A DNA stretch of 64,000 bases, from NCBI GenBank assembly GCA_947497145.1, contig CANMFQ010000020.1, positions 1 through 64,000 of the forward strand. Direction: 5' to 3'. The notes below the pieces were generated by a model that did not search any database, was not told the DNA's origin, and saw only the letters and a program-made list of their open reading frames with translations. Positions 2,381 through 51,351 of the stretch are shown piece by piece. Position 1 is the first letter of the stretch. The number at the start of each line of letters is the position of its first letter. Position numbers and translations under genes: made by a program. The DNA is from an uncultured Flavobacteriaceae bacterium (GTDB taxonomy: Bacteria > Bacteroidota > Bacteroidia > Flavobacteriales > Flavobacteriaceae).

Positions 2381-2418
2381 AATTTTTGTATTCTGTTAGA
2401 TTTCTATTTCAAAATAAT

Positions 2419-3750: not shown

Positions 3751-3764
3751 TGGTCGTTTGTTTT

Positions 3765-4952: not shown

Positions 4953-4958
4953 CTGATG

Positions 4959-6482: not shown

Positions 6483-6536
6483 ACTTTTTTTAGTTATGTG
6501 ATTGACTTTAATTATGTTGTTTTTGTATCACTGCTT

Positions 6537-7982: not shown

Positions 7983-8020
7983 GCCTAAATGTATGCTCTT
8001 GGCAGTTGTTATGCAAATAA

Positions 8021-8050
8021 AAAAAGCCACTTCGATTGAAGTGACTTTTT
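8021..8050 (-). terminator. Terminator after the subtilase gene
   Basis: A 13-bp stem (8021-8033 with 8038-8050, one mismatch) closes a 4-base GATT loop and is flanked by A and T runs on both sides. It lies 22 bases after the stop of the subtilase gene and overlaps the upstream in-frame extension of the decarboxylase, which argues for the shorter decarboxylase start. Confidence 0.8.
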
Positions 8051-8072
8051 AGGTGACATGTTTGGTTTAAAA

Positions 8073-9488: not shown

Positions 9489-9699
9489 AATATTTAATGA
9501 TTATATGAACTGAAATTACGAAAATTATCTGTACGTAGTTTGTTTTTTGCTAAATAAATGAGTTATTACTTACTTGTAATCAGTCTTTTATCTTATATTT
9601 TGTAGGTTTTATAAATTATAATAAGAAAGATGATTTCTATAATTTTTTGCTTTAAATTCGAATTTTTATTGCTTAGATTTTGTACATAAAAGAAATGAA

Positions 9700-9734
9700 A
9701 AAATCCTTGTGAGCTATTGCTGCACAAGGATTTT
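9700..9734 (-). terminator. Terminator after the trehalose synthase/phosphatase gene
   Basis: A perfect 12-bp stem (9700-9711 with 9723-9734) closes an 11-base loop and reads into a T-run on the minus strand. It lies ~105 bases beyond the TPS-TPP stop. The remaining gap (9489-9839) is very AT-rich and shows nothing else that I can identify. Confidence 0.8.
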
Positions 9735-9839
9735 ACTGAGATGTAGGAAAAGATAAATTTCTTTACAATTTTCTAATTTTAAAATAGAAGCAAGCCACAA
9801 CAACAGTTCTTATTTTGAAGTATTAGCTGGTCTACCAGA

Positions 9840-31880: not shown

Positions 31881-32903
31881 TCAATTTAACCCATTACCAT
31901 AAGCAATAACAAGAATACCTATTATCATACAAGATAGGCCAGCGTATAGTATGTTTTTTGCTTTACTAGATGCATTTACCCATTCATTGGTAACAATACC
32001 ACTTACAATTGCCGTTGCTACAGAAGCTGTATTGAAAATGGCATAGCCAACAGTATTACCAGAAGCTCCTAGTTTTGATGCGGCATATGCAAAAAGGGCA
32101 GAGGCAGCGTAATGAAAGAATGCCATTACCAAAATTAGAAAAAGGTTTTTACCCAGAGCACTGGTATTAAAACCTCCCCAAGCTTTTTTTGCATTTAATT
32201 GCCAAAGGAAATAGGCGGTCATTACAATACCACCACTAATAAAAATAGGGAACATAATGGCTACGGCTGTAATCCAATCGGCATTTCCTTGGGCGGTACT
32301 TGCTTGGTGTAAGTAAGGTCTTCCCACGGCATTTGCATAGCTAAAGCCTGTTGCTAAAAGTCCGCCAATAACGGCAATTAGTATGCCTGTGGTCATTGAG
32401 CCCTTATCGGTGTTTTTTTGTGTTGTTTCAGCTATTTTTTCTTCATCTTTTTCTCGGGTTAGGCCTGCTTTTCCATTTAGTATGATACCGAGTAATACCA
32501 CAATAATTCCAATAATCACAAAAGTGAGTACGTGGATAGGAGGTAGACCGTCAACAGCAAATGGTAGCAGTGAACCTATAAGAATAACCGTGCCAATAAA
32601 AATGGAAAACCCAAGTGATAAACCAATGTAATTGATAGCTTTACTCCACATCATAACGCCAATGCCCCATAAGAAACTGGCTAGTCCCATTTTTATCCAA
32701 ATATCCGTTGGCATGTTACCAAATATCTCACCAAAGCCTTTTATTAGTGTTAATGAAGCGCTAATTGGAACTACAAACATGGTGAGTAGAAAAAAAATGC
32801 TCCATGTATTTTCATACTTAAAGCCTTTTGTGAATTTTTCTGGAAGTGCATAAAGCCCTAACATTAATCCGGCAAAAATTGCCCATAAAACTCCTTCGGT
32901 CAT
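31881..32903 (-). CDS. RhaT-family (DMT superfamily) sugar-proton symporter, probable anhydrogalactose carrier
   Basis: 340 residues with about ten membrane helices, no signal peptide, and the length and repeat layout of the L-rhamnose/H+ symporter family (GLMLGLYALPEKFTKGFKYENTW at the start; internal soluble loop ~150-170 between the two five-helix halves). No rhamnose catabolic gene is nearby; the seven upstream genes handle 3,6-anhydrogalactose. By context it is proposed to import AHG, L-galactose or a related deoxy/anhydro sugar across the inner membrane. Last gene of the operon, 42 bases after the epimerase gene. Confidence 0.85.
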   Translation of the reverse strand: MTEGVLWAIFAGLMLGLYALPEKFTKGFKYENTWSIFFLLTMFVVPISASLTLIKGFGEIFGNMPTDIWIKMGLASFLWGIGVMMWSKAINYIGLSLGFSIFIGTVILIGSLLPFAVDGLPPIHVLTFVIIGIIVVLLGIILNGKAGLTREKDEEKIAETTQKNTDKGSMTTGILIAVIGGLLATGFSYANAVGRPYLHQASTAQGNADWITAVAIMFPIFISGGIVMTAYFLWQLNAKKAWGGFNTSALGKNLFLILVMAFFHYAASALFAYAASKLGASGNTVGYAIFNTASVATAIVSGIVTNEWVNASSKAKNILYAGLSCMIIGILVIAYGNGLN

Positions 32904-32945
32904 AATATATGTTTTTAGTTGGTCATGGTTAATGACTGTTGGTTA

Positions 32946-33989
32946 TTACCATTTGAATTTAAAAATAGTACTGCTATTGTAGGTTTCTCCTTTTTTTAGA
33001 ATGCTCTTGGGCGCATTGGGTAAATTAGGACCATTGGGATAGCGATGTGTTTCACAGCAAAATGCCCTGTATTTTCCGTACTGCTGACCTGATTCACGCT
33101 GCAAAAGATTGGAGGTGTATTTGCCTGTATAAAAAAGCATTCCGGGTTCAGTGGTGGCAATTTCTAATGAACGTCCGCTCAGAGGATCTTTAATTTTGGC
33201 TATATTTTTTAAAGCGAATTCTTTTTCTTCAAAGAGATAGAAGTGCTCAAAACCATCACCCATACGTTGATGTACCTCACCAATAACTTTTTCATTTCGC
33301 AAATCGTCATCAGCACCAATAACGGAAATATTTTCTCCTGTGGCAGCTCCTGAATTATCCCAAACCTGTTTTTTATTAGCCTGAATTTGAACCGTATGAT
33401 TTTCAATACTAGTGGTAAACCCAGCTAGGTTAAAATAACTGTGATTAGTTATGGTAAAAGGCGTATCGGCATCTGTAACGGCTTTGTACTTAATTTGAAG
33501 TTCATTGTCATTATTGAGTGAAAATGTAACACTAACCGTCACATTACCGGGAAAACCTTCCTCCAAATGGGTACTGCGCAATGCCATTTCTACTTGTGCT
33601 AGTTCTTTTACTATGGGTTGCGCTAACCACAAGCGTTTGTCAAAACCAAGGGTGCCGCCATGCAAATTATTAGCACCACAATTTGCTGCCAGCGGATAAT
33701 TTTTGCCATTAAGGGTAAAACTAGCATCTTTTATTTGTGAGCAATAACGCCCAATTGTACCTCCAAAATAAGGCGAATTATTATTATAATCTTCTGAAAA
33801 ATAATTTTTTAGGGTGTCAAAACCACATGCAATTTCTTGCGGGTCGCCATTTTGTTGCGGTACAATAATAGATGTTATGGTAGCACCATAATTAGAAATT
33901 TTTACCTGCATGCCCTTATCGTTTTCTAAGGTATACAGTTGTACGTCATGTTCTTTATGCGTTCCAAAATAGGTTTCCGTAGTGTGCAT
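32946..33989 (-). CDS. galM: Aldose 1-epimerase
   Basis: 347 residues, the usual length. Substrate residues are seen in NNLHGGTLGFDKRLW and ITNHSYFNLAG (catalytic His), with a late acidic segment EPGMLFYTGKYTSN and a C-terminal FCCETHRYPNGPN loop. It interconverts alpha and beta anomers of aldoses such as galactose. No signal peptide, so cytosolic. In this operon it would supply the right anomer of galactose or of the aldehyde sugar released by the GH117 enzymes. It follows the cycloisomerase gene by 9 bases. Confidence 0.93.
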   Translation of the reverse strand: MHTTETYFGTHKEHDVQLYTLENDKGMQVKISNYGATITSIIVPQQNGDPQEIACGFDTLKNYFSEDYNNNSPYFGGTIGRYCSQIKDASFTLNGKNYPLAANCGANNLHGGTLGFDKRLWLAQPIVKELAQVEMALRSTHLEEGFPGNVTVSVTFSLNNDNELQIKYKAVTDADTPFTITNHSYFNLAGFTTSIENHTVQIQANKKQVWDNSGAATGENISVIGADDDLRNEKVIGEVHQRMGDGFEHFYLFEEKEFALKNIAKIKDPLSGRSLEIATTEPGMLFYTGKYTSNLLQRESGQQYGKYRAFCCETHRYPNGPNLPNAPKSILKKGETYNSSTIFKFKW

Positions 33990-33998
33990 ATGTATAAT

Positions 33999-35090
33999 TT
34001 ATTGTTGATATGGTTGTAGTTTTTGCCAATCAAAAACAACACCTATACCCGGTTCATTTGGTGCAACGGCTCTGTGGTTTTCTACAACCAGAGGTCTTTT
34101 CGTATATTGGTCAATAGGAAAGCTATGTACTTCTAACCAACCGGCATTGGGTTGAGCCGATACCAAACTTACGTGTAGCTCTTGCATACCATGAGAACAG
34201 GCAGGAATATGCTGTGTAGCCGCCAATTTGGCTGCTTTTAACCATCCGGTAATGCCTCCGCAATTGGAAGCGTCGGGTTGTAGAAAAGAAAGTTTAGCTT
34301 GGTCTATTGCGTATTCAAATTCATGAATGGTATGCAGGTTTTCACCCATGGCTAATGGAAAATTGGTTGCGTTAGCAATTTGAGCAAATCCTTGGTAGTT
34401 ATCGGGAATAATAGGTTCTTCAAACCAAGTAATGTCATATTTCCGAAACTTTTTTATAGCTTCGATCGCCTTTTCAACAGTCATAGAATAATTGGCATCT
34501 ACCATAAATGTGATATCAGAACCAATGTATTCACGTACCGCTTTTATGCGCTCAATATCTTCATCAAGGTTTTCGCGACCTATTTTAATTTTGACAGCAT
34601 TAAAACCTGCCGCCAAATAGCTTTCCATATTCTTTAAAAGTTTAGGAATGGGAAATTGTAAATCAATTCCGCCGCAATACGCTTTGCAGGTATTGTCTGC
34701 GCCACCAGCCATTTTCCATAGAGGTTGTGCTGCTTTTTTACATTTAATATCCCACAGTGCAATGTCAATAGTTGACATTGCAAATGAGGCAATACCACCG
34801 CGACCCACATAATGAATGTGCCATTCCATAGCGTCATAAATTTCATCAATAGCAGTAGCATCTTTTTGTAGTAAAAAAGGCGCTAAATCATGTTGAATCA
34901 TTGCTTTTATCGCATGCCCTCCTTTACCACCAGTATAGGTATACCCTGTTCCTTGAATTCCATCTACGAGGGTAATAGTTGTAGTTATTAACTCAAAATG
35001 AGTATGGTCACCATGTTTTGCATCGTTCATCACCTCGGGTAGTGGTACACGAAAGAGCTTACAGTCAATAGTTTTTATGTTTGTATCCAT
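33999..35090 (-). CDS. Enolase-superfamily enzyme, probable 3,6-anhydro-L-galactonate cycloisomerase
   Basis: 363 residues, mandelate racemase/muconate lactonising type. The active-site set is complete: Lys167 and Lys169 (KIKI), metal ligands Asp198 (VDAN), Glu224 (FEEP) and Glu250 (GEN), and a His300-Asp273 dyad (SHG, QPDAS). Two functions fit the fold: sugar-acid dehydratase or cycloisomerase. The directly adjoining aldehyde dehydrogenase (the stop and start are contiguous at 35091/35090) and the two GH117 genes favour the reaction known from agar degraders, anhydrogalactonate to 2-keto-3-deoxygalactonate. The assignment is by context and fold, not by sequence identity. Confidence 0.82.
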
Positions 35091-36545
35091 TTACGCCTTG
35101 TGTCTTATGTAAAAAGTCTTTTTTTCTAAATATTGTTCAAATCCATATTTACCATCTTCTCCACCAGAACCACTTAACTTATAACCATTGTGAAACCCTT
35201 GGTGCTGTTCGCCATGACCTCTATTCACATAAATTTCGCCATATTCAAGTTCATCATTACACTTCATAATAGTGTTCATGTTGTTTGTAAATATCATGGC
35301 AGCCAAGCCATAGTCACAATCATTGGCATAGCCAATTACCTCTTCAAAAGTTTTGAATTTAAGAACGGGTAGTATGGGGCCAAATGACTCTTCATGTACA
35401 ATGGTCATATCTTGTGTTACGTTGGTTAAAACCGTAGGCTCAAACCAATATCCTTTTTCAAATTGTGGGCCCTTTGGACGTTTACCTCCAGTGGCTATTG
35501 TGGCACCTTCTTTTACACTAATGGCTACTAAGTGCTCCATGTGTTTAAGTTCTGCGGCGTTTACTTTTGGTCCCATATCAGTTGTTTCTAATAGGGGGTC
35601 GCCAACGTTTAATGCTTTTGTTTTAGCTATAAATTTGCGCATAAAAACAGCATATATAGCTTCGTGTACATACATGCGCTCATTACAGGTGCAAACCTGT
35701 CCGCAATTGTCAAAACGAGAATGGAGTGCGGCATCAACGGCCGCATCAATATCTGCATCTTCAAAAATGATAAATGGAGCTTTTCCGCCCAGCTCAAGTT
35801 GCACATGGGTAAGGTTTTGTGCGGCATTACGGGCTATTTGTTGTCCTACAGGAGTTGAGCCCGTCATGGTCACCATTTTTGTAATGGGACTTTCTACTAG
35901 GGCATTGCCCATAGCTCTTCCAGGGCCAGTTATGATGTTGAGCACCCCATCAGGAAGGCCTACTTTTTTGGCCAAATTGCCAAGTTCTAAAGTAGCCAAA
36001 GGCGTTTCTGAAGTTGGTTTAAGAACAACGGTGTTACCAGCAACGAGTGCAGGACCTATTTTTCTTCCTGCTAATGCTAGTGGAAAATTCCATGCTGTAA
36101 TGGCAACCACAACACCGCGAGGAATTTTTTGTATCCAAATTTGCTCGTTAGGATTGTCTGACGGAATAATATCCCCTTCAATTCTTCGCGCACCTTCACA
36201 GGCATATTCAATGAAGGAAGCGGTTACCGCAACTTCCATACGGGCTACTTTTAATAATTTTCCTTGTTCTTTTACTAAAAGCTCGGCTAAATAATCGGCA
36301 TTTGCTTTAATTTCATCAGCAAGCTTTCGCAATATTTCTGCCCGCTCACGGGGGGGTAATTTACGCCATGCTTTTTGCGCTTTTTCAGCTGCTTTTAAGG
36401 CACTATGGGCTTCTTCAATAGTGCCATTCTGTACTCTTGCAACAACGTCTTCTGTGGACGGATTAATTACGTTAATAGTTTCGCCAGAAGTTGAAGCAGT
36501 CCATTTTCCGTCGATAAAAAGTAGGTACTCTTTTGTAGTTGCCAT
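35091..36545 (-). CDS. NAD(P)+-dependent aldehyde dehydrogenase, probable 3,6-anhydro-L-galactose dehydrogenase
   Basis: 484 residues with the ALDH landmarks: Asn153 (AWNFPLA), general base Glu251 (ELGGK), nucleophile Cys285 (GQVCT), and GSTPVGQ as the cofactor loop. It resembles lactaldehyde/succinate-semialdehyde-type enzymes. In characterised agarolytic bacteria an enzyme of this family oxidises AHG to anhydrogalactonate, and this is the obvious role beside GH117 and the cycloisomerase gene, with which it has no intergenic base. Cofactor preference cannot be judged with confidence. Confidence 0.88.
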   Translation of the reverse strand: MATTKEYLLFIDGKWTASTSGETINVINPSTEDVVARVQNGTIEEAHSALKAAEKAQKAWRKLPPRERAEILRKLADEIKANADYLAELLVKEQGKLLKVARMEVAVTASFIEYACEGARRIEGDIIPSDNPNEQIWIQKIPRGVVVAITAWNFPLALAGRKIGPALVAGNTVVLKPTSETPLATLELGNLAKKVGLPDGVLNIITGPGRAMGNALVESPITKMVTMTGSTPVGQQIARNAAQNLTHVQLELGGKAPFIIFEDADIDAAVDAALHSRFDNCGQVCTCNERMYVHEAIYAVFMRKFIAKTKALNVGDPLLETTDMGPKVNAAELKHMEHLVAISVKEGATIATGGKRPKGPQFEKGYWFEPTVLTNVTQDMTIVHEESFGPILPVLKFKTFEEVIGYANDCDYGLAAMIFTNNMNTIMKCNDELEYGEIYVNRGHGEQHQGFHNGYKLSGSGGEDGKYGFEQYLEKKTFYIRHKA

Positions 36546-36590
36546 AATTATTTGTTGTGATTTTATGCTTAATATTTATTGTTTGATGGA

Positions 36591-37361
36591 TTATCTGCCC
36601 ATCCAACCACCATCTACCAACATGGTACTTCCGCTCATATAGTTTGATGCTTGTGAAGCGAGAAATACAATAGGACCTTTAAAATCTTCAGGTTTTCCCC
36701 ATCTACCAGCTGGAATTCTCGCAAGAATTGATTTTGAACGTTCTGGATCATTGCGTAGGGCTTCGGTATTATCTGTACTGATATATCCCGGAGCAATAGC
36801 GTTTACTTGTACGCCTTTTCCTGCCCATTCGTTAGCAAATGCCATCGTCATTTGACCAATAGCGCCTTTACTAGCTGCATAACCTGGTACGGTAATACCG
36901 CCCTGGAAGGTGAGGAGGGAAGCTGTAAATACAATTTTACCAGCACCTCTAGCAACCATTTCTTTTCCTATTTCTCGCGTCAATACAAATTGTGCTGTTT
37001 GGTTTACCTCAATAACCTTATCCCAATATTCATCAGGGTGTTCTGCTGCTGGTGCTCGTAAAATAGTACCGGCATTATTAACCAGAATATCAATTTGCGG
37101 AAAATCGTCTTTCACCTGTTTTATGAATGCATAAAGTGAATCACGGCTGCTAAAATCACAGGTATATCCTTTAAATTTTCTTCCAATGCCTTCTACTTCT
37201 TGTTCTACAATACTACCATGTTTTTCTAGTGAGGCACTTACGCCAATAATATCTGCACCAGCTTCTGCTAAGCCCAAAGCCATTGCTTTTCCTATACCTC
37301 TTTTACAGCCTGTTACTAATGCTATTTTACCTTTTAGGCTAAATTCTTTTAAAATGCTCAT
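36591..37361 (-). CDS. kduD: SDR dehydrogenase of KduD type, probable D-KDG 5-dehydrogenase step
   Basis: 256 residues. TGCKRGIG at 18-25 (cofactor), NNAG (Asn96), Ser148, and the catalytic pair Tyr161/Lys165 (YAASK) are in place. It aligns by eye with KduD (2-deoxy-D-gluconate 3-dehydrogenase). In the L-AHG pathway worked out in agarolytic bacteria, a KduD-like enzyme reduces 2,5-diketo-3-deoxy-L-galactonate to D-KDG after an MDR dehydrogenase has oxidised C5; both enzyme types occur in this operon. 45 bases separate it from the ALDH gene downstream. Confidence 0.85.
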   Translation of the reverse strand: MSILKEFSLKGKIALVTGCKRGIGKAMALGLAEAGADIIGVSASLEKHGSIVEQEVEGIGRKFKGYTCDFSSRDSLYAFIKQVKDDFPQIDILVNNAGTILRAPAAEHPDEYWDKVIEVNQTAQFVLTREIGKEMVARGAGKIVFTASLLTFQGGITVPGYAASKGAIGQMTMAFANEWAGKGVQVNAIAPGYISTDNTEALRNDPERSKSILARIPAGRWGKPEDFKGPIVFLASQASNYMSGSTMLVDGGWMGR

Positions 37362-37378
37362 TTTTTTTGCTTTTTTAA

Positions 37379-38569
37379 TTATAGTGCTTTTTGCACATAG
37401 GTTTCAAAACGTCTTATATAATCCCAACCGTTTTTATGGTCAAAACACAGCCCCCATTTTAAGGCCGCTAAAGGGGCTTTTTCTGTTTGAATTGACCGTA
37501 CTAAGCCTGCGGCATGAGGTGGTTTTGTACGCCCGCCTATGTGTGATTTTATGTCGAAATTAATGCCATCAGCAGCCCATTGAATGGTGTTGTTTTCTGG
37601 GCCATCGGAGGTTAACATAGCCGCTATTCCTCCCTGATAGTGCCATACGCAAACTTCGTGTCCGCTATTGGTTATTGGGTTGTATGGAGATTTTTTATAT
37701 GGACCTTCTATGTGGTCTGCAATAGCTACCCCCCATTTTATTTCCCTACCGCCTAAGGTGTGTTCTTCTCCCATGCGCTCACCTTTGTAATAGAGATAAA
37801 ACTTATTTTTATAATGCATGAGGCAGGGGTCATGGACTTTGTGGCTATCAAAATCACCCTTCTCTTCAACAAGAAATCGATTGTCTTCATTACCTAACCA
37901 CTTACCATTATCTGATGGCGATAGAATGGGAGTAGCTAATTTTTTCCATGGTCCCTCGGGAGAATCAGCTATGGCCATACCCACTTGGTTTTTTACTCGA
38001 TTTAAGTAAGGAGCTTTTACGGTTTGATATACTAAATAATATTTGCCATTATGTGCTAAAACTTCGGGAGTAAATACAGCGCGGTCGTCATAAGCACCCT
38101 TACTACCACGTCCAACAGCCAGACCAACATCATACCACATAAAACCATCTGTTGATTTTGCGCACCATATTTCTGATAAATCCCAAGGAAATACTTTTTT
38201 ATTGGGGTCTCCTGTTTTAAACCCATAAGCCTTTCCATAACTTTTGGTATAATAAACATAGTAAGTGCCATCAACTTGAATTACCGCACTGGGATCTCTT
38301 TTTACAATACCTTCTTCAAAACCGATATCTCCCTTAATGTCTGATATTCGGAATTTTGTCCACCATTCAGCATTAGCGTCATACCCCATTTCAATCGCCC
38401 TTTTTGAGGCTGAACTTAGGCTATCTATGTTTGTGATGCCTAATTGTTTGACTAGTTGTTTTGAAACTTTTTTCTGGGGCTCAACTGCATCTTTTTTGTC
38501 CTTTTCTTGGCAACTACACAGCGCTAAGAATACCATAAAAAAAGTAAGGCTTGATTTTGTCGCTTTCAT
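37379..38569 (-). CDS. GH117 exo-alpha-1,3-(3,6-anhydro)-L-galactosidase, paralogue 1, lipoprotein
   Basis: 396 residues with a lipobox (LCSC, Cys20), so membrane-anchored in the periplasm or on the surface. The five-bladed propeller carries the GH117 acidic triad and His: Asp92 (KRDPSA), Asp247 (HKVHDPC), His304 and Glu305 (NSGHE). The N-terminal helical segment (SASKRAIE) is the domain-swapped dimerisation element of the family. GH117 enzymes release 3,6-anhydro-L-galactose from the non-reducing end of neoagaro-oligosaccharides. Some clades are inactive on neoagarobiose, so activity should not be assumed. It is inside the AHG operon, 17 bases before the SDR gene. Confidence 0.92.
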
Positions 38570-38591
38570 TGGTTGAGTTTTAGTACATGTT

Positions 38592-39608
38592 TTAACGTTG
38601 GCAGTCCATTAAGGTTTTCATCCCGTCAGGGTTGTTATCAATATTTTCAAATACTTGTTGAATGTTGGTCAGTGGTTGTACATCGGTAATCATTTGCTCA
38701 AAAGGCAATGTATTTGCTGTAACCAATGCTATGGCGCGCTCATAATCTTCTTTTTCATAAACGCGAGCACCAATGAGTTTTAATTCTTTCCAAAAGAATT
38801 TAAAAAGATCAATCTCTTTCTTTTGTCCGTGAATGGCAACCATTAAAATACGTCCACGAATACCCGCAATTTCGGTCATCACATTCAATGCAGCTTGAAC
38901 GCCTGCCACTTCAAAAACTACATCGGCATTACGACCTTCTGTTTGCTTTTTTACATAGTCTATTAAATCAATTTTAGTGGGGTTTACGGCATTCAGCCCT
39001 AGTTCTTTTGCTTTGGTAATTCTATTTTCATTCACTTCAGAAACGATAATATTGGCGCCAGTTTCTTTGGCTACAAGGGCTACAAGAAGTCCAATAGGGC
39101 CACCGCCAAGCACAACGGCGGTTTCGCTAGCTTGTAATTTACTCAAGCGCACATCATGAACCGCAACAGCCAAAGGCTCAGTAAGAGCGGCTAGTTTTAA
39201 ACTTGTTTCTTCCTTTAATTTATGCAGGGTGAAAGCAGGAACATTCCAATACTGTTGCATAGACCCTGGGCTATCAATGCCTATAAATTTTAAATCTTCA
39301 CAGATATGATTAAAGCCCTTGTCAGATGGTTTTACACCACGGTCATCAAGCGGTCGTACAACTACTTTGTCACCTATTGAAAATTTTGATACGCCTTCTC
39401 CTATGGCATCTATCGTACCAGACATTTCATGGCCTATGGTAAGGGGAATGCTGACACGTTTGTCCATCATACCGTGGTAAATGTGAACATCAGTACCACA
39501 TACGCCAGAATAGGCGACTTTTATGCGAACCTCTCCTTTTGCAGGAGGAGCGATTTTTTTTTCAATTACTGAAAACGTTTTATTTCCTTCATATACTGTT
39601 GCTTTCAT
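38592..39608 (-). CDS. Zinc-type medium-chain dehydrogenase, probable 2-keto-3-deoxy-L-galactonate 5-dehydrogenase
   Basis: 338 residues. Catalytic zinc residues Cys37 (GVCGTD), His60 and Glu61 (GHE) are present, and [10 protein letters not shown] is the cofactor site. The structural-zinc lobe (about residues 86-105) has a single Cys (Cys103) where most homologues have four, so the second zinc is absent. It is similar in kind to L-threonine/sorbitol/L-galactonate 5-dehydrogenases. In the L-AHG route an enzyme of this family oxidises C5 of 2-keto-3-deoxy-L-galactonate. First gene of the AHG operon, 22 bases before the first GH117 gene. Confidence 0.83.
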
Positions 39609-39911
39609 TTTTTTGAATTAAATAGTTGTTGTATAGTTTGCGAACTCTTTTTTCTACTTTAAACCTCGGAGTTTGTATCTATGCATGTCCCTGGTTATAG
39701 TTGACTGTTTTAGGTATTAGTAATTTTATTAGGTCTTATAATTAGTTCAAAATAAACTCCCCGTTATTGTACTTCTCCTCCTTAATACAAAATATCAGTG
39801 CCTAAGCCAGAAAATAAATCATTTAGTAGTTAAAGCTATGCAAGGATTTTTATCAAAGGGAAAAAATATTAAACTCTTCCATTTTAAAATTAGAGAAGTA
39901 TACCGATTCGT
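39609..39911. other. Intergenic region: promoter region of the AHG operon and flanking repeat
   Basis: 303 bases without a gene. Bases 39682-39730 carry the second copy of the repeat found at 31661-31707. No ACTAGACA operator and no good TAnnTTTG box was found on the minus strand, so the AHG operon promoter may differ from those of susC and the sulfatase gene. Confidence 0.5.
39682..39730 (+). repeat. Repeat flanking the AHG operon, upstream copy
   Basis: TGCATGTCCCTGGTTATAGT continuing to 39730 is the same-orientation partner of 31661-31707. About 85% of the first 30 bases agree, and less in the AT-rich remainder. Confidence 0.6.
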
Positions 39912-41156
39912 TTATTTTTTTTCTGTTGATAGTTTTGCTGCTTCTCCTTTTGCCGTGTGCGATGTTCTACGCTGTGAAGTAAATCGCATAATGCTCTGCT
40001 CATTATAATTATTATATATGTGTGTTAATCCCCAGCGTAAAATTTCGGTAGGTTCTTTTTCTGTATCGGCAGACCTGTTGAGCCCTATTGCATGTGGAGC
40101 GCCTTTAATTGAAGACATAATTTCAAAATTGATCCCGTCTGGAGCCCATTGAATGGTATTTTTTTCAGGACCATCAGTTGTAATTAAAGAAGCGATACCT
40201 CCGTTGTAAGGCCATACACAAATTTCATGACCACTATTACTAATAGGATTGTATGGTGATTTAATATAGGGACCTTTAGGGTTATCTGCAATAGCAACTC
40301 CGTGACGAATTTGACGACCACCAAAGGTGATTTGCTCACCCATTTGTTCTCCTTTATAGTATAAATAAAATTTTCCTTTATAAGGAAGAATGCAGGGATC
40401 ATGTACCTTATGACTGTCAAAATCTCCTTTCTTTTCAACCATAAAACGATTTTGTTCCTCGCCTTTCCAAATACCATTGTCTGCAGGGCTAAGAATAGGT
40501 TCCTTACTTTTAGTCCATGGACCATTTGGAGAATCAGCCCAGGCGAGCCCTACTTGATTTTTGACACGTACATTGTAAGGTGATTTTACCGTTTGATAGC
40601 AGAGGTAATACTTGTCTTCATATTTCATAATTTCAACAGTGAATACAGAGCGATCATCATACGCTCCTTTTTTTCCTCTACCTACAGCTATACCTTCTTC
40701 TTTCCAAGTAATACCATCTATAGAAGTGGCATACCAAATATCACAGCGATCCCATGGAAATACCTTGTCTTTTTCAATATCACCACCAAAACCTTGTGTA
40801 GCACCTGTGCTTTTTGAGTACCATACGTAGTATTTTCCGTTTTCTTTTATCATAGCGCTTGGATCCCTACGAACCACCCCTTTTTCATAAGCTAAATCTC
40901 CTTTTAAGGGCATGGGTGCGCTAAATTCTATAAACCATTCATTGCCAATGTCTGGCCATTGTAACGCTCTTTTTGAGGCAGCACTTAAATACTCTTTATT
41001 GGTGATACCCAAATGGTCTATTTTTTCATCAGTAATGTGAAGGTCTTTGTCAGTCATTTCGTGGGTAGTTTTTTTTTCAGGACATGGTTGTTTTTGCTTG
41101 CATGCAATAAAAGATAGCACTACTAGGGAGACTACTATGCAGAGTCGGTTATTCAT
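39912..41156 (-). CDS. GH117 exo-alpha-1,3-(3,6-anhydro)-L-galactosidase, paralogue 2, lipoprotein
   Basis: 414 residues; lipobox FIAC with Cys19. Complete GH117 site: Asp98 (RRDPSA), Asp253 (HKVHDPC), His310 and Glu311 (NSGHE). It shares long blocks with paralogue 1 ([28 protein letters not shown]), so the pair arose by duplication. It differs in having a Lys/Ser/Thr-rich C-terminal tail of ~20 residues and a longer linker after the lipobox. It has its own upstream region with a tandem ACTAGACA-type operator and probably its own promoter. Expected to act on neoagaro-oligosaccharides or anhydro-galactose-ended porphyran fragments. Confidence 0.92.
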
Positions 41157-41398: not shown

Positions 41399-43042
41399 CT
41401 ATAAATTAGCAATGAAGTCTTCAAGATTTACACTTCGTTCTAATTTCATTTTCTTTCGTAATCTGTACCTTGTGGTATGTACAGACTCAACAGATATGCC
41501 CAGTAATTTTGCCATTTCTTTACTAGAAAAGTTAAGTTTGATAAGGGCACATATTTTTTGATCGGCTTGACTTAAGTTTGGATATTTTGTAGCGATTCTT
41601 TTGTAAAACTCTTCATTTACAGCGGTAAATCGTAGTTTAAATTCTTTCCAATTATTTGTGTTGTTTAATGAAATTGATTTTAAAATATGGTTGACCTCAG
41701 TACTTTTGGATCCTTCTTTTAAAGCAACAAGCTTACTTTTTAAGTCTTTAAGGAATTCGTCTTTTTCAACCAATTGTAAGGCCGATGTGGCAAGCTCTTT
41801 GTTTTTTAAAGCGACTATTTCTTTTGTTTTTTGAATTTCAAGCTCTTTGTTTTTTTGTATTAGCTCTTTTTCTATTTTGTGCTTCGATCTAATTTGCATG
41901 ATGTAAACAGCAGCAATAATTAGGGTAAAAATAAGAGCTCCCAGTAATATTATACGTTGTAAAAAAGAAATTTTATCTTCCTGCTCTAACTGTTCTAAAC
42001 GCTGTTTTTGAATTAGTTTTTCTTGGCGTTCTTTTTCAAGGCGATATTCATCTTTTATTTCTAACAGCGGTTTATTGATGGTACTTCTGCTATCAAAAAA
42101 TAGCGCATCTAATTCTTTAGCTGTTTGTTGACTTAAAAATGCTTTACGATAATCTCCTTTATTTTGATATAAATTGGCCAGCCTTTCATGAATTAGAGGA
42201 GAAAAATCTACATGACTGTTGTACGTATTAGAAATTTCAATTGCTTTCTTGTAATAGTATTCACTTTTTTCATGATCTACGGGCGCATTGCGGTAAATAT
42301 CACCCCAGTAGGTATAGATTAGTACCAAATATGAGGGTCTATTTTTTTGAAACCAAGGTTCTATATCTGTTAGTATTTTTAGGGCTTCATTTGTTTTGTT
42401 TTTTTTTGCTAAAATGAAAGATTTTTCAAATTGTAAATAGGCCATTTCAATTTGATTGGGTAGGGTTTTGTACTTAAGAAAACAACTGTCTAAATAAATT
42501 TCTCCAGTTTTTAAGTCTCCCAGTTCGCGGTAGGTGGCACAAATTAAATAATAATCTTCAACCAAATACCCTTGATCTAATGATTGTTGTTCTACTAGTT
42601 TTTTCTTCAGCTTTAATCCAGATTGTAAATATTCAAAAGCTTTTTTCTCTTTTTTAAAAAAACTATAAAGTCGACCTAATTTACTGTATACATTGGCTTT
42701 TAGTTTGTCATTTTTAATGTCATCTGCAAGGAAAAGAGCTAGCCACAAGTCGTCGTAAGATTTCGCATAATCAACTTTTTGTCCATAGATGTACGGCATA
42801 TCTAAAAGTGTATTAATAGCCATTACGGTGTCTCCGCCTTTTAAAAATTTCTCATGCGCCTGTTGCAATAAACTTACTGCACTATCAGGATTTTGAAATC
42901 GGAGTGTTTTTGAGTTTTCTAAAAGCGTTTTTGCTGCATTAAGTTCATTTAATGGGTTGTCTTGCGCATGCGAAAAGGTCATGATTACTAATAGCAAGGC
43001 TATTACAAGGGTATGAGGCACTTTTAGTACTTTATTCATCAT
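41399..43042 (-). CDS. Membrane-anchored TPR / LuxR-type HTH transcriptional regulator
   Basis: 547 residues: signal peptide or N-terminal helix (LVIALLLVIMTFSHAQ), TPR-like helical repeats ~40-340, one membrane segment (IILLGALIFTLIIAAVYIMQI), a coiled coil (KELIQKNKELEIQKTKEIVALKN), and a C-terminal LuxR-type helix-turn-helix (ADQKICALIKLNFSSKEMAKLLGISVESVHTTRYRLRKKM). The topology places TPRs in the periplasm and the HTH in the cytosol, so it could sense a periplasmic signal directly, without phosphorylation. Three bases separate it from the FG-GAP gene upstream. It is the only transcriptional regulator within the PUL and the obvious candidate for the ACTAGACA sites. Confidence 0.85.
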   Translation of the reverse strand: MMNKVLKVPHTLVIALLLVIMTFSHAQDNPLNELNAAKTLLENSKTLRFQNPDSAVSLLQQAHEKFLKGGDTVMAINTLLDMPYIYGQKVDYAKSYDDLWLALFLADDIKNDKLKANVYSKLGRLYSFFKKEKKAFEYLQSGLKLKKKLVEQQSLDQGYLVEDYYLICATYRELGDLKTGEIYLDSCFLKYKTLPNQIEMAYLQFEKSFILAKKNKTNEALKILTDIEPWFQKNRPSYLVLIYTYWGDIYRNAPVDHEKSEYYYKKAIEISNTYNSHVDFSPLIHERLANLYQNKGDYRKAFLSQQTAKELDALFFDSRSTINKPLLEIKDEYRLEKERQEKLIQKQRLEQLEQEDKISFLQRIILLGALIFTLIIAAVYIMQIRSKHKIEKELIQKNKELEIQKTKEIVALKNKELATSALQLVEKDEFLKDLKSKLVALKEGSKSTEVNHILKSISLNNTNNWKEFKLRFTAVNEEFYKRIATKYPNLSQADQKICALIKLNFSSKEMAKLLGISVESVHTTRYRLRKKMKLERSVNLEDFIANL

Positions 43043-43045
43043 TGA

Positions 43046-46000
43046 TTACTCTACTACTGTGTTTAATTTAAAAAAATCATGGGTATCATTATTATTCACT
43101 ACCACAATGATTTTTCCCTTTTTTGTGGATACGGTGGTCATATTTCTAACATCTTTATCGGCAAAAAATCCGGATTCAAGATGGGAGATAGTTTTAAAAT
43201 CAGCACTTCCGTTTCCTGCTAAAAATGCTCCTATTCCAGCATCAGCTCGTGTGGTTTCTACCTCAGATTGATAATTATTTCCTGCCAGAAGCAAGTCTTT
43301 TTGTCCATCAGCATTAAAATCTTCAAACACCATACTATTTATGGGTGATTGTTGTATGTTATTAGCAAAGGGCTTGAAGGTGAATTTTTTATCGCCATTA
43401 TTTATAAAAATTCCCGATCTAAATTCTGTGGCCTTATAGTGTAGTGCAGTCTCTAAATTTTCACCTACAATACCTCTAAGGTCTTTACTGGCAAAATCAT
43501 TATACGTTGGTATTTTTTGAGCAAGATAGGGTAGTTGTTGCGTCATACAAGATTTTCCGCGCACAGGTACTTGTTTTCCGTTATATTTTTTTGCTAAAAT
43601 AATATCTTCTGTTCCATTAGAATCAAAATCTGAGGTGTATATTTCAAAGGGTTTTTCTGTAGATGCATGAAATTTGTAATTAAGTCCAAGATTACCAGCT
43701 ACAATATCTTTATCGCCATCATTATCTATATCAATTATCAACAGTTTGTTCCACCAGCCTACAGCTTTGGATAAGGTGGGGTATGCGTTGCTTTTTTCTA
43801 AGCGATTATTTTTATTTAAGAACACTTGAATGCCCATCCATTCACCTGTGATAACGAGGTCTGTTTTCTTATCATTGTTCATGTCTGTCCAAGTAGCACT
43901 GGTCACTAAACCTACATTATTTAAAGCAGGCGCAAAGGTTTCATTTGCAATTGTAAATTTCCCCTTGTTATTTATGAGTAAGAGGCTACTTGCAGGGTGG
44001 GGGTATTGCCCAGTGATTACCCTGCCACCAACAAATAAGTCTATATCGCCATCATTGTCATAATCAGCGGGTACAACAATAGAACCTGCTATGCCTACCT
44101 CTGGTATTGCATTGATGGCTTTTGAGAAATTCCCCAAACCATCATTAAGATACAGCCGATCTACCAGTAAACGTGGATTGTTTTTGAACTCATAACTTCC
44201 GCTCACCACGTATAAGTCTTGATCTCCATCATTATCTACATCAAAAAATGCTGCGCCAACATCTTCGTGGTTGCTGTCTTTTGTAAAATCTGGGGTGTTT
44301 TTTACTTCAAAAGTGTTTGTTGATGAAGTGATAAGCAACTGACCCGCTTGACCAGCGCCACCACCTATAAAAATATCTTCATCACCATCATTATCAATGT
44401 CCGCTTTGGCAAGTGCTGGCCCCGTTTGCGAAAGTTTATGGGGGAGTAATATTTGAAGGTCATAATCATTAAAATAGGGGTCTTTATGCGCAATAGTTGT
44501 CTCTATTTTATTAAAAAGGGGGTGTTTTTTGTTGGATGAGGTTTGCGCCTCTTTTTTAGTAGCAAATTGATAGTTCATGTACAGCCATTGATTGGCTTTT
44601 ACATCTGTTAGTTCTTGGGTTTTACCGTCTGCCCATATAATTTCCATTTTTTTGGCAGCTAGGTTGTTACCCATGCCAAAATGCAAAGTGTTGTCGGTTG
44701 CAGAGAGAAACCCTTTGGTGTTCACGAGTTGTCTAATTTGGACGGAATCATTATCAAAATATAATTTAACCGTAGTTCCCACACCATATTGGTTTTCACG
44801 AGGACCATCGAAATTTAATTTCAACCAATAATTTCTTTCGGGCAGATTCATCTTTTGGTTTTCTAAGAGCGTTGCTTCATCATTTATATTATTAACAACG
44901 ATATCCAAATCTCCATCATTATCCAAATCTGCATAGATGGCTCCATTGGAAAAACTAGGGGTGTTTTCTGTCCAGGTGTCACTTACATCTTCAAATGTTC
45001 TGTCTTGGTTATTTTTATAAAAGTAATTTTTGATTTTTTGCTGGGGTAGCATCTGCGCATACTTTAAAAAATCTTCATCGGTAGGTTTGCGTTTATTCTC
45101 TTTTAGCATATTGAGAGTTTCGGCAAGCTTATCTCTATCCATTACATCTCTGTAAACGCCATTGGTAATGAATATATCATTATAACCATCCAAATCAAAA
45201 TCAGCAGAAAGTACTGACCAACTCCAGTCAGTATCGGCCATTCCTGCCATTTTGCTGATTTCGCTAAACGTGCTGTTGCCATTGTTTATATGCAACATAT
45301 TGTGCATATATTGATGATGATAGCCTTTGTTAACCATGAGTTCAAATTGATCAATAGAGGTCATCGCCATCGTTGTTTTTGATCGAATATAATCAGAAGG
45401 ATTCATGTCTAAGGTCATCAAGTCTAAAAGGCCATCATTGTCAATATCGGCCATATCGCCACCCATACTGTTAAAAGACATATGCTTGAAAATATCATCA
45501 CGTGATTCGGTAAAAGTTCCATTTTGATTGTTGATATAGACCAAATCAGGTACGTTAAAATCATTGGAAACATAAATATCTTGCCAGCCATCATTGTTAA
45601 GATCTCCTACCTGCGGATGTAAACCAAAACCAATGTCATATTGAAGGCCTGCTTTTTCTGATATATCGGTAAAATGACCTGTGCCATCATTTTCATAGAG
45701 GCGATCACATCCTTTTAGTTTAAGTGTTTTGGGGTCTTTTTGAATTTTTTCAAGGTCCAATACTTCTGTCCTGCTGGTTATATCAGGAGTGTTTGATATA
45801 TACACATCTAAATCATTGTCTTTATCAAAATCAAAAAAAGTAGCATGAATAGTTCTGTTTGCATCTGCAAGTCCCATTTCTTCAGCCCTTTCGGTGAAGG
45901 TTTCATCGCCATTATTTATATATAGTAAATTGGCAAATTTATTAGCATCATCCTTCCATCCACCTCTAGAGACATAGATGTCTAACATGCCATCATTGTT

Positions 46001-46441
46001 GACGTCTACCATAGTAACGCCTGTGTTAAAACCATCATTTTTAGTAATACCAGCAGTTTTGGTAATATCTTTAAATTTTAAGCCTCCTTGATTGAGGTAG
46101 AGTTTATCTTCAGAAGAATTGGAGGTAAAATAGAGGTCGACAAAACCATCTTGGTTAATATCACCAGCTGCCACCCCGCCACCAATATAGGTGTACATAT
46201 ATTGGTAATAATTAGAGGTTAAGGTCTCTTCTAAGGTGTTTACAAAATTGATACCTGATTTTGATGAAGGTATGGTATTGAATAATTTTGTTGTTTTTTT
46301 AGCAGTTTGTTTTTGAGATTTGGGTGTTGATTTTTTACAGCTTTGAAAAGCCAATAGTAGTATAAAAATGAAGGCTGTTGATGCGACAGAATTATACAAT
46401 AGACGGTTTTTTTGGTTCATAAGAATGGGTTTAGAATCCAC
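43046..46441 (-). CDS. Large FG-GAP/VCBS and ASPIC-UnbV lipoprotein (PUL-associated)
   Basis: 1131 residues. Lipobox Cys follows FILLLAFQS; a second start seven codons in (46420, MNQKNRLLYN) also gives a good signal. At least a dozen calcium-binding-type DxDxDGxxD repeats (DINQDGFVDLYF, DVNNDGMLDIYV, DLDNDGDLDIVV, DFNADGQKDLLL) form two beta-propeller-like blocks. An ASPIC/UnbV domain lies between them (YWLKLNFDGPRENQYGVGTTVKLYF...LHFGMG). Such proteins accompany SusC/D pairs in marine flavobacteria and are thought to bind glycans or Ca2+ on the surface. In an operon with the TPR-LuxR regulator; it starts ~180 bases past the susD terminator. Confidence 0.88.
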   Translation of the reverse strand: MDSKPILMNQKNRLLYNSVASTAFIFILLLAFQSCKKSTPKSQKQTAKKTTKLFNTIPSSKSGINFVNTLEETLTSNYYQYMYTYIGGGVAAGDINQDGFVDLYFTSNSSEDKLYLNQGGLKFKDITKTAGITKNDGFNTGVTMVDVNNDGMLDIYVSRGGWKDDANKFANLLYINNGDETFTERAEEMGLADANRTIHATFFDFDKDNDLDVYISNTPDITSRTEVLDLEKIQKDPKTLKLKGCDRLYENDGTGHFTDISEKAGLQYDIGFGLHPQVGDLNNDGWQDIYVSNDFNVPDLVYINNQNGTFTESRDDIFKHMSFNSMGGDMADIDNDGLLDLMTLDMNPSDYIRSKTTMAMTSIDQFELMVNKGYHHQYMHNMLHINNGNSTFSEISKMAGMADTDWSWSVLSADFDLDGYNDIFITNGVYRDVMDRDKLAETLNMLKENKRKPTDEDFLKYAQMLPQQKIKNYFYKNNQDRTFEDVSDTWTENTPSFSNGAIYADLDNDGDLDIVVNNINDEATLLENQKMNLPERNYWLKLNFDGPRENQYGVGTTVKLYFDNDSVQIRQLVNTKGFLSATDNTLHFGMGNNLAAKKMEIIWADGKTQELTDVKANQWLYMNYQFATKKEAQTSSNKKHPLFNKIETTIAHKDPYFNDYDLQILLPHKLSQTGPALAKADIDNDGDEDIFIGGGAGQAGQLLITSSTNTFEVKNTPDFTKDSNHEDVGAAFFDVDNDGDQDLYVVSGSYEFKNNPRLLVDRLYLNDGLGNFSKAINAIPEVGIAGSIVVPADYDNDGDIDLFVGGRVITGQYPHPASSLLLINNKGKFTIANETFAPALNNVGLVTSATWTDMNNDKKTDLVITGEWMGIQVFLNKNNRLEKSNAYPTLSKAVGWWNKLLIIDIDNDGDKDIVAGNLGLNYKFHASTEKPFEIYTSDFDSNGTEDIILAKKYNGKQVPVRGKSCMTQQLPYLAQKIPTYNDFASKDLRGIVGENLETALHYKATEFRSGIFINNGDKKFTFKPFANNIQQSPINSMVFEDFNADGQKDLLLAGNNYQSEVETTRADAGIGAFLAGNGSADFKTISHLESGFFADKDVRNMTTVSTKKGKIIVVVNNNDTHDFFKLNTVVE

Positions 46442-46684: not shown

Positions 46685-48274
46685 TTAATTTCCAAGGTTT
46701 GGCAATCTATCTACTTCTACTTGAGGAATAGGAGCAAAATAATTATCAGTACTTAATGATCCTAAGATAGGATTTGAAGGGGCTGTTAATGGGGTAGGTG
46801 TGCCATTGCCAGCACCATCAAAAACAGTGCCTATAGAAACGCGCGGGTTTCTAGCGGTTCCGCCCAAAGCTGCTTCCACCTGTTCTTTACGAACCAAATC
46901 GTTATATCTAAGATATTCTCCTGCTAATTCCCATTTGCGCTCTTGAAAGGCGAGGTCTTGTATTGTACCATCAGCAGCACTCACATCTTCTAGTCCTGCT
47001 CTTCTGCGTACCATATTTAATGCCTCCCAAGCATCTGCACCTGCATTGCCAGCTTCACCAGAAGCTTCAGCATAAATCAATAATAATTCAGCATAACGCA
47101 TAAAATAATCATTACGGTCACTTTGAAAACCTTTCCATGTGCCTTCTTCAAAAGGACCGACTATTTTTCTAAAAACTGGATTTTGCTGATCTTTAAATTC
47201 TGTCCATGGAAGTGAATCAACTGGTTCGGTAGATGCGTCTCCAATGATATTTCCGTTAGCATCAAGAGGCATCGCTACGTGATAAGTAGCCTCTTTACGT
47301 GGTCCTTCAGGAAAATCTTCAAAGAAGCGAATTTCTGCAAATGATTCTTGCCAGCCATTTGTTGGGGCTCCACTTGGTAAGCCCAATTTACCATGTTTTC
47401 TATTAGGAAGACCACAAGAAGCACAATATACAATTGAAAATATTGATTCGGTATTAAATCTTCCTGCGATAGTATATAAACTTGCCATATCTTCTACAAG
47501 GGCAAAACCATGACCACCTTCTATAACTTGCTTGGCACTTGCTGCAGCCATGGCGTATTTGGAGTTGTCTTTTACTGGAAAACCTGCCCAGTCTAGATAT
47601 AATCGTGCTAAAATAGCTCTTGCAGACCCTGAATTTGGCCTTGCAGCTCCTACTTCGGTAGTTTGTGGAAGCAGTCTTTCGGCCTCAAGTAAATCGCTTT
47701 CTATTTGTTGATACACCTCTACTTGAGATGCTCTAGAAATTTCGCTGTCTACTTCTAAAGTGGTAGGTAAAGGAATTCTACCATGCACACGAGCCATTTG
47801 ATAAAACATTAAGCCTCTTAAAAAATAAGTTTCTCCAATTAGCACATCTTGTTGTGCTTTTTCTGGGAGTTCAACCCCTTCAATATTTGCCAAAACGGTA
47901 TTAGCCGCAAGCACCATTGAATATACACCTTGCCAATTTACTGCAGATCGACCGTTGGTGGTAGAAACATTTCTTTGGTCGTATTCTCTAAAATCAGCTT
48001 TGTTACTGGCTCTATGCGTAGTCATATCATCACCCGACCATCCATTGACGTAAAAAGTAGTCATCCAGGCAGCTTTATTTAATTGCCCATAAATACCTGT
48101 TACAGCAAGGTCTAATTCTTGAATGTTTGTGTACGGGATTACCGCTAATAATGCCTCAGTGGGATCTTCTTCTAAGTCAAATTGCTCACAACTATTAAAA
48201 GTCATAGCGACGGCCATAAAGGCAACTGCCCATAGCTTTAATTTAAATGATTTATACAATTTTGTTGTTTTCAT
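46685..48274 (-). CDS. susD: SusD/RagB-family outer-membrane glycan-binding lipoprotein
   Basis: 529 residues; lipobox FNSC with Cys29. The N-terminal helical region (NTNIQELDLAVTGIYGQLNKAA), TPR-like core (ETYFLRGLMFYQMARVHGRIPL) and C-terminal segment (RNDYFMRYAELLLIYAEASGEAGN...VRRRAGL) are typical of SusD. It forms a lid over the TonB-dependent transporter and binds the glycan at the surface. 30 bases after susC, one transcript, ended by a strong terminator. Confidence 0.95.
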   Translation of the reverse strand: MKTTKLYKSFKLKLWAVAFMAVAMTFNSCEQFDLEEDPTEALLAVIPYTNIQELDLAVTGIYGQLNKAAWMTTFYVNGWSGDDMTTHRASNKADFREYDQRNVSTTNGRSAVNWQGVYSMVLAANTVLANIEGVELPEKAQQDVLIGETYFLRGLMFYQMARVHGRIPLPTTLEVDSEISRASQVEVYQQIESDLLEAERLLPQTTEVGAARPNSGSARAILARLYLDWAGFPVKDNSKYAMAAASAKQVIEGGHGFALVEDMASLYTIAGRFNTESIFSIVYCASCGLPNRKHGKLGLPSGAPTNGWQESFAEIRFFEDFPEGPRKEATYHVAMPLDANGNIIGDASTEPVDSLPWTEFKDQQNPVFRKIVGPFEEGTWKGFQSDRNDYFMRYAELLLIYAEASGEAGNAGADAWEALNMVRRRAGLEDVSAADGTIQDLAFQERKWELAGEYLRYNDLVRKEQVEAALGGTARNPRVSIGTVFDGAGNGTPTPLTAPSNPILGSLSTDNYFAPIPQVEVDRLPNLGN

Positions 48275-51300: not shown

Positions 51301-51351
51301 CGACAGGAAGCATTTTTTTAAAAGTTTAAAGAATTGTTTTTTCATAATCAT
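48304..51351 (-). CDS. susC: SusC/RagA-family TonB-dependent transporter
   Basis: 1015 residues. Signal peptide (GIQSAFAQ), N-terminal carboxypeptidase-regulatory-like domain (GTVTDALGPVAGANIIVKGT...FDGNFSIEA), plug domain beginning EEVVVIGYGTAKKSDLTGA, TonB-linked outer-membrane beta-barrel, and a SusC-type C-terminus (AGINIGAYPNPRTFTLGVKVGF). No FecR/anti-sigma extension domain, so it is a transporter rather than a signal transducer. It imports oligosaccharides delivered by SusD. Two Met codons (first and third) are possible starts. The 508-base upstream region is shared with the divergent GH29 gene and contains a tandem 11-bp repeat. Confidence 0.95.
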   Translation of the reverse strand: MIMKKQFFKLLKKCFLSGLFFVLLGIQSAFAQQTVTGTVTDALGPVAGANIIVKGTTIGTQTDFDGNFSIEASPSDVLVISYLGYATKNVPVGTKTTINVQLTEDASQLEEVVVIGYGTAKKSDLTGAISRVSTDSFKDQPVTRVEEALQGRASGVTVAKANGQPGGAIKVRVRGVNSIEGNNSPLIVVDGIQGLDLSTINPNDIASMDILKDASATAIYGVRGSNGVIIITTKRGSGKGKISVDYFTTVSRTPKFLPTLADNPDQFAIIENLRRTQTGGSPIFSDEEISDLANNGGTNYQDELLRTGISKNLQISASGSEGKLSYFLSGNYRDEEGIVINTGFEQLSVRSNISSQVNKKLKVGLNMNVTRGVQRNNTDVLGNGQGSFIYKALTWDPTTPVFDADGNYNIRSLKGIASLNDNPIRTMNETDIRDINERVNGALNVKYDITSNFSYSMVLGAQINNLNRQRYAVEVGDDQLPHTSFYNNKFTAYQLSNIFNWQKEFGEHNIKLTGVQEYSNSKQVNNGYNANDLTLDSKNFFFAELAPNSGQTIYNTFAPRELSSFMLRAEYVLSNDLFLTATGRYDASSVFRKENRWGFFPSLALAYSLNGLIEDSESISSLKLRAGWGKVGNQNTAPYATYTTPAFNSYAFDGGSAQAGTRLSRIGNPDLTWETTTQLNVGVDLGFQNGRGTVSLEGYKKVTDDILLPVPLPDTYGGNNGQITVARNIGQVENFGFDVTLGYDIIATENMNWNANFTLSYVKNKVTQLYDDLESIPGRFTAPGGQGNIINGIELGQPLGQFFGATFLGTWKSDDNIPLNSEGAPIAQPGEAKYLLDENNEIVYGAIGNGTPDLTWAFNNSVNYKDWDLNIFIQGVHGFDVYNIQQAGITGGAGDSRSFLASDQVNAWTPQNQTDVPAFAHLYESSRYVEKGDFIRLSNLSLGYTLHDFAGWEGSSVKLYASGQNLFLITDFSGYDPESTSRRTNGQGNEDAAAGINIGAYPNPRTFTLGVKVGF

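Follow-up and report, generated by a model that had tools for sequence, protein, structure and literature searches.

A predicted 3,6-anhydro-L-galactose operon with two GH117 genes in an uncultured flavobacterium

A gene cluster in an uncultured Flavobacteriaceae bacterium very probably encodes the conversion of 3,6-anhydro-L-galactose (L-AHG) to 2-keto-3-deoxy-D-gluconate (D-KDG). The cluster occupies positions 31881-41156 of a 64,000-nucleotide stretch of DNA (the window; positions 1 to 64,000 of the forward strand of contig CANMFQ010000020.1, assembly GCA_947497145.1), where it would be the branch that handles L-anhydrogalactose in a SusCD-type polysaccharide utilization locus (PUL) of a marine flavobacterium. 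The same conversion, with inversion of C5 by two dehydrogenases, had been proposed in a first-pass annotation of the window. At the level of sequence it is supported by matches to solved structures in the PDB, the gene order of relatives and kinase-aldolase pairs elsewhere in the genome, as well as by published accounts, cited here and below from the portions available (PMC10163077, PMC5613140, PMC5943477, PMC6581685).

Layout of the operon and the proposed pathway

All eight open reading frames (ORFs) of the cluster were found on the minus strand, in the order, at the coordinates and with the families given by the first-pass annotation. Pfam and NCBIfam confirmed the families of six of the eight genes, namely the medium-chain dehydrogenase/reductase (MDR), the short-chain dehydrogenase/reductase (SDR), the aldehyde dehydrogenase (ALDH), the enolase-superfamily enzyme, GalM and RhaT. 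Both glycoside hydrolase family 117 (GH117) proteins are GH43-like to Pfam and take their name from PDB comparison. In order of transcription, the genes and the basis of each assignment are:

39912..41156, minus strand, GH117b, counterpart of Zobellia AhgA (exo 3,6-anhydro-alpha-L-galactosidase); PDB 3p2n, identity to Zobellia and active-site residues
38592..39608, minus strand, MDR, zinc-type medium-chain dehydrogenase, proposed 2-keto-3-deoxy-L-galactonate 5-dehydrogenase (EC 1.1.1.389); PF08240/PF00107
37379..38569, minus strand, GH117a, second GH117, a distinct paralogue inside the operon; 57% identity to GH117b, tree and active-site residues
36591..37361, minus strand, KduD-like SDR, proposed 2,5-diketo-3-deoxy-L-galactonate reductase giving D-KDG (EC 1.1.1.127); TIGR01832 and PDB 4z9y
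35091..36545, minus strand, ALDH, proposed 3,6-anhydro-L-galactose dehydrogenase (EC 1.2.1.92); PDB 6j75, Cys and Glu motifs
33999..35090, minus strand, predicted 3,6-anhydro-L-galactonate cycloisomerase (EC 5.5.1.25), enolase superfamily; PDB 5xd7 and motif
32946..33989, minus strand, GalM-type aldose 1-epimerase; PF01263 and NF008277
31881..32903, minus strand, RhaT-like sugar symporter, which would bring the freed sugar across the inner membrane; PF06379

The intergenic gaps from GH117b to RhaT are 303, 22, 17, 45, 0, 9 and 42 bases. The genes from MDR to RhaT appear to form a single unit, with GH117b perhaps transcribed separately, because the gaps within the unit are 0-45 bases compared with 303 bases after GH117b. 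A promoter and terminator scan returned sites no more numerous than in shuffles, and an Rfam search gave no match. Conserved motifs are in place in the cycloisomerase, ALDH, SDR, MDR and both GH117 proteins, in agreement with the catalytic residues noted earlier; in the first four enzymes we take these to be the catalytic motifs.

From the families, motifs, gene order and conservation, a substrate and a direction can be proposed for each step in this organism. The two GH117 lipoproteins, probably periplasmic, would split L-AHG off neoagaro-oligosaccharides, and the RhaT-like symporter would import it. ALDH would convert L-AHG to anhydro-L-galactonate, which the cycloisomerase would open to 2-keto-3-deoxy-L-galactonate. 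The zinc MDR would then oxidize C5; the product, the 2,5-diketo acid, would be reduced at C5 to the opposite configuration by the KduD-like SDR, yielding D-KDG. A kinase and an aldolase encoded elsewhere would carry D-KDG to pyruvate and glyceraldehyde-3-phosphate, and GalM would serve released galactose.

Enzymes of the proposed route

PDB comparison places the ALDH with the AHG dehydrogenase type and the cycloisomerase with the anhydro-L-galactonate type. The best match of the cycloisomerase is 5xd7, a 3,6-anhydro-alpha-L-galactonate cycloisomerase (623 bits, E 1.1e-186), and the next distinct PDB protein, 2ovl, scores 321 bits. Its motif HGMQELH is at residue 300, and the pattern HGM(Q/H)ELH is present in 88/88 aligned sequences including the window's own. 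ALDH matches 6j75 over residues 5-482 of 484 (748 bits, E 2.8e-224); 6J75 is the reference structure for EC 1.2.1.92 (PMC10163077).

The MDR and SDR genes stand together with the ALDH and cycloisomerase genes in the window. The MDR carries CGTD at 37 and GHE at 59; it has no close solved relative in the PDB, where its best match scores 141 bits. The nearest PDB entry to the SDR is 4z9y, named 2-deoxy-D-gluconate 3-dehydrogenase. By its stereochemistry (4S), the 2,5-diketo acid is the usual KduD substrate. The sharing of EC 1.1.1.127 in PMC10163077 agrees with this, and the MDR counterpart in Aquimarina ERC-38 is named there as the EC 1.1.1.389 enzyme.

Conservation across related loci

Searches with the cycloisomerase found 324 relatives, of which the best 80 were kept; all counts out of 80 refer to these loci. 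The named organisms among them are, as we understand it, all Bacteroidota. Genes were counted if they lay on the same strand as the cycloisomerase, within 10 kb or the examined flanks, and above set identity limits. Beside the cycloisomerase are found ALDH (72/80), MDR (72/80), KduD-type SDR (66/80), RhaT (64/80) and GalM (62/80). The full trio of ALDH, KduD-type SDR and MDR occurs in 65/80 loci (61/71 with long flanks), and the trio plus GalM and RhaT in 54/80. The grouping is more than chance, because the trio lies within 10 kb in 65 of the loci, and the earlier observation that the four enzyme types occur together in the window extends to these relatives.

Five loci with an incomplete trio are on short contigs or have short flanks (L014, L033, L036, L064 and L067). 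Another ten are incomplete despite long flanks: L040, L042, L045, L050 and L060 have another SDR, and in the examined flanks L022 is without ALDH, L061 without the SDR, L081 without both dehydrogenases, and L041 and L046 without all three. In L041, L046 and L067, a cycloisomerase-GalM-RhaT group without ALDH, MDR or SDR in the examined flank lies, by eye, downstream of exopolysaccharide-synthesis-like genes. L022 (Maribacter halichondriae, 3341-11098) is an ALDH-less operon with GH117, MDR, SDR and cycloisomerase; ahead of its GH117 are, by eye and by ORF starts, genes for a TRAP-type permease and for 2-dehydro-3-deoxygalactonokinase-like and aldolase-like proteins. Perhaps this operon is fed by an imported acid.

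The five loci with another SDR keep MDR and ALDH, and the replacement occupies the KduD-like slot (5/80). All five replacements score 421-441 bits to the gluconate 5-dehydrogenase model, above its cut-off of 369, and the L042 protein shares 81-97% identity with the other four. Judged from family models, two subfamilies of SDR occupy one operon slot, each with a name that refers to C5 oxidoreduction. As a genomic observation, a gluconate 5-dehydrogenase-type SDR in the same slot independently supports reduction at C5. One SDR of this type is also encoded in the window's genome, away from the operon.

The two GH117 paralogues

GH117b matches 3p2n best (E 3.4e-227), an entry named 3,6-anhydro-alpha-L-galactosidase, and is 79-89% identical to its counterparts in five Zobellia loci (L005, L007-L009 and L012). 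GH117a is 57% identical to GH117b and matches 3p2n, 5ta7, 3r4y and 4ak5 almost equally (457-467 bits). Both have a lipoprotein-like N-terminus by eye. The active-site residues of the P. plebeius GH117 are Asp90, Glu167, Asp245, Lys260, His302, Glu303 and Asp320 (PMC11574756). These positions read DEDKHED in GH117a and GH117b, with all seven residues intact, as in 76/84 aligned sequences.

A second GH117 inside the operon is a little unusual for the group: besides the window, a GH117a is carried by 7/80 related loci. A separate count of 22 loci very probably includes GH117b positions and was set aside in favour of this figure. GH117a lies between MDR and SDR in 7 loci, the window and L002, L003, L004, L013, L028 and L030, and these copies form a clade with a FastTree support of 1.0. 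With L020 the clade has 8 members (support 0.89); the L020 copy lies upstream of MDR and has Gln at the Glu167 position.

Catabolic genes elsewhere in the genome

KDG kinase and 2-keto-3-deoxy-6-phosphogluconate (KDPG) aldolase candidates were both found in the genome, as two kinase-aldolase pairs on contigs C10 and C14. Both aldolases are above their NCBIfam cut-offs. Both kinases match KDG/KDGal kinase models (KDGal, 2-keto-3-deoxygalactonate), and their substrate is less sure because both fall below the KDG-kinase cut-offs. A second RhaT-like permease, at 2151-3152 of locus L082, directly adjoins the C10 pair and is 26% identical to that of the operon.

Permease, GalM and the neighbouring SusCD genes

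The operon's permease is above the Pfam cut-off for PF06379 (68.9 bits, cut-off 27) and has no solved PDB relative at E 0.01. A RhaT homologue of Bacteroides uniformis NP1 has been proposed as an AHG importer (PMC5849685). GalM scores 248 bits to NF008277, above the cut-off of 240, and 279 bits to TIGR02636, below the cut-off of 398. Beyond GH117b lie:

41399..43042, minus strand, tetratricopeptide repeat (TPR) protein, likely a regulator, whose C-terminus weakly matches sigma-70 region 4; PF08281, 21.7 bits, below the cut-off of 25.7
43046..46441, minus strand, FG-GAP/ASPIC-UnbV protein; Pfam
46685..48274, minus strand, SusD-like protein
48304..51351, minus strand, SusC-like TonB-dependent receptor
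51860..53398, plus strand, GH29, nearest to the exo-alpha-L-galactosidase of a porphyran system; PDB 7snk and 7ljj
55449..57134, minus strand, sulfatase; PF00884

A homologue of the TPR/regulator protein is present in the examined flank of 32/80 loci. The large FG-GAP/ASPIC protein sits between SusD and the regulator, and its homologues flank 12/80 loci. The GH29 protein is an alpha-L-fucosidase to Pfam but is nearer the exo-alpha-L-galactosidase than other solved fucosidases, with 431 bits to 7snk and 428 bits to 7ljj compared with 280 bits to the next fucosidase, 9lxl. Both top entries are BpGH29, an exo-alpha-L-galactosidase (PMC12316285). The GH29 and sulfatase genes suggest that the locus sees L-galactose-containing agarans.

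Search for agarases

Agarases were sought in 21 genomes, the window's own and 20 hand-chosen from the 80 loci. A single Microscilla query, annotated 'MS132 beta-agarase' in PLSDB and presumably a GH16 member, had no match in the window's genome at 1e-10 and matched 15/21 genomes. PF18206, which we take to represent GH86, had no match in the window's genome and was positive in 7/21. Of its 10 places in Flammeovirga pacifica, 5 fall inside the agarases Aga4007, Aga1974, Aga2050, Aga4974 and Aga4975 (coordinates from PMC6581685). A single GH50 query from F. pacifica was negative in the window's genome and positive in 3/21, F. pacifica among them, and an agarolytic GH2 query gave matches of 26-29% identity at most. 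PF00722 detected two GH16 proteins in the window's genome, both with laminarinases or beta-glucanases as best matches. This model cannot rule out agarases, because the MS132 query itself has no Pfam match; the query matches a kappa-carrageenase model weakly.

In nine of the 21 genomes, PF18206 and the GH50 query found nothing and MS132 gave no match at 1e-30. MS132 is also without a match at 1e-10 in five of these nine, among them the window's genome, and it matches the other four weakly (7.8e-11 to 7.5e-18). The absence of agarases from the window's genome is suggestive, coming from single queries on a 198-contig draft with GH118 and GH96 not searched. If the lack is real, the 9/21 searched operon carriers would be candidates for second-line use of agar oligosaccharides. 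In a broader scenario, which we regard as unlikely, the genome would belong to a flavobacterial group that has the whole L-AHG pathway and two specialized GH117s but no agarase and feeds on its neighbours' oligosaccharides; GH117a would attack chain ends that are substituted or hybrid (L-galactose-containing), and MDR/SDR would be an outlet common to L-AHG and L-galactose. An association between GH117a and agarase absence (5/8 carriers versus 4/13 others, Fisher p 0.20) is not claimed.

Discussion

Several findings weigh against the L-AHG to D-KDG assignment. The SDR scores 325.9 bits to the KduD equivalog TIGR01832, 13 below the cut-off of 338.85, and is classed as KduD-like, not as KduD. The permease scores 292 bits to the RhaT equivalog NF010022, below the cut-off of 369. 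No activity on neoagarobiose was detected for the GH117 of the F. pacifica operon (NABH4989), and of the GH117s of this organism only NABH4454 was active on it (PMC6581685). The tree places NABH4454 far away from GH117a and GH117b; a fourth F. pacifica GH117 stretch (L116) gave no GH117 match in that analysis. Activity of the operon-type GH117 is favoured because of the naming of 3p2n and because GH117B of B. uniformis is active (PMC5849685). Given no agarase match, the organism may not itself be an agar degrader.

Nor is the cycloisomerase alone proof of L-AHG use, judging from relatives with 57-71% identity on plasmid records of Enterobacter (71%), Roseibium (68%), Mesorhizobium (65%) and Geobacillus (57%). 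No GH117 match at 1e-20 was found on these four records (8 plasmid records do match; chromosomes were not searched). In Roseibium, an ABC sugar transporter is followed by adjacent genes for cycloisomerase, MDR and SDR. The cycloisomerase family may have another substrate in these four records (L096 and L098-L100), and because of this it is the whole context that carries the assignment to L-AHG in the window. Some records filed as plasmids carry chromosomal genes, namely those of Enterobacter (dnaA, gyrB) and Catenovulum (L101; rpsB, bamA, dnaE).

The module could serve L-galactose as well, because dehydration of L-galactonate also yields 2-keto-3-deoxy-L-galactonate, the substrate proposed for MDR/SDR. 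A module shared by L-AHG and L-galactose from porphyran-like agarans is compatible with L-AHG use and is possible, if somewhat improbable. It would fit the exo-alpha-L-galactosidase-like GH29 and the sulfatase beside the SusCD pair, the arrangement in the GH117-less Roseibium record, and the Zobellia cluster ZGAL_4657-4669, for which induction by agar, and weaker induction by porphyran, has been described (PMC5613140). However, an L-galactose dehydrogenase and an L-galactonate dehydratase were not identified in the genome, where six further enolase-family matches are not characterized, and the GH29 gene is on the opposite strand.

It is very unlikely that the dehydrogenases are passengers and that 2-keto-3-deoxy-L-galactonate is used directly. 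For Vibrio EJY3, two steps are believed to be enough to bring the acid into metabolism (PMC5943477), and L081 and L061 are without both dehydrogenases and without the SDR, respectively, in their examined flanks. The idea was rejected on the retention of MDR in 72/80 loci and of the KduD-type SDR in 66/80, with a replacement SDR in 5 more.

Service of D-AHG from carrageenan is scarcely credible: its route also starts with an ALDH and an enolase-superfamily cycloisomerase (PMC5698469) and a single GH127-family match exists in the genome (E 2.2e-5, above the cut-off only with neighbours in frame), but the reading was rejected on the 623 bits of the cycloisomerase to the L-enzyme against 116 for the sequence of 4ggb/4hpn (the comparison did not extend to DauA and DauB themselves), on the absence of a D-KDGal kinase or aldolase among the ORFs at 31881-41156, and on the dehydrogenase pair. 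That D-AHG needs no such pair, as the first-pass annotation argued, agrees with the D route as set out in the available part of PMC5698469, where 4hpn is AtGCI in a figure legend and the Zobellia L-type enzyme ZGAL_4659 was unable to replace DauA on D-AHG.

Operons for the L-AHG to D-KDG conversion are known from several organisms. Agar PUL-a of Aquimarina sp. ERC-38, whose gene order agrees with that of the window and is printed with four EC numbers, has GH117, MDR, SDR, ALDH and cycloisomerase under consecutive locus tags and, like the window, has its kinase and aldolase elsewhere (PMC10163077). It differs in containing GH2 and six GH16/GH86 agarase genes and in having no GH117 in its MDR-SDR interval; GalM and RhaT are not mentioned in the portion of that paper available. 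Zobellia galactanivorans ZGAL_4657-4669 shares the ahgA GH117, L-AHG catabolic genes, a TonB receptor and surface glycan-binding protein pair, two regulators and a sulfatase (PMC5613140). The five Zobellia loci differ in having no GH117a, and both of the Zobellia genomes searched, those of L005 and L008, have matches to the agarase query (6.6e-98 and 1.2e-95).

Plasmid pBUN1 of B. uniformis carries GH117, MDR, SDR, ALDH, cycloisomerase, GalM and RhaT in the same relative order as the window, but an additional sugar-binding-domain gene separates GH117 from MDR, and RhaT is followed by a sugar kinase; the agarose PUL of strain NP1 also has GH2, GH16 and GH86 (PMC5849685). The F. pacifica WPAGA1 operon, whose ALDH and cycloisomerase have been assayed (PMC6581685), contains all seven gene types, but its GH117 is last instead of first and its MDR is 53% identical to that of the window. 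Pseudoalteromonas atlantica T6c and Paraglaciecola hydrolytica S66, the latter by homology, share the route from L-AHG to KDPG via two dehydrogenases and a kinase (PMC5943477); they belong to another phylum and are likened by the described route, not by sequences or gene order. This operon type is already published for other Bacteroidota, and the window is a further member, ordinary for its group except for the additional GH117 in the operon and the lack of an agarase match in the searches made, which adds one more genome to a well-described catabolic operon.

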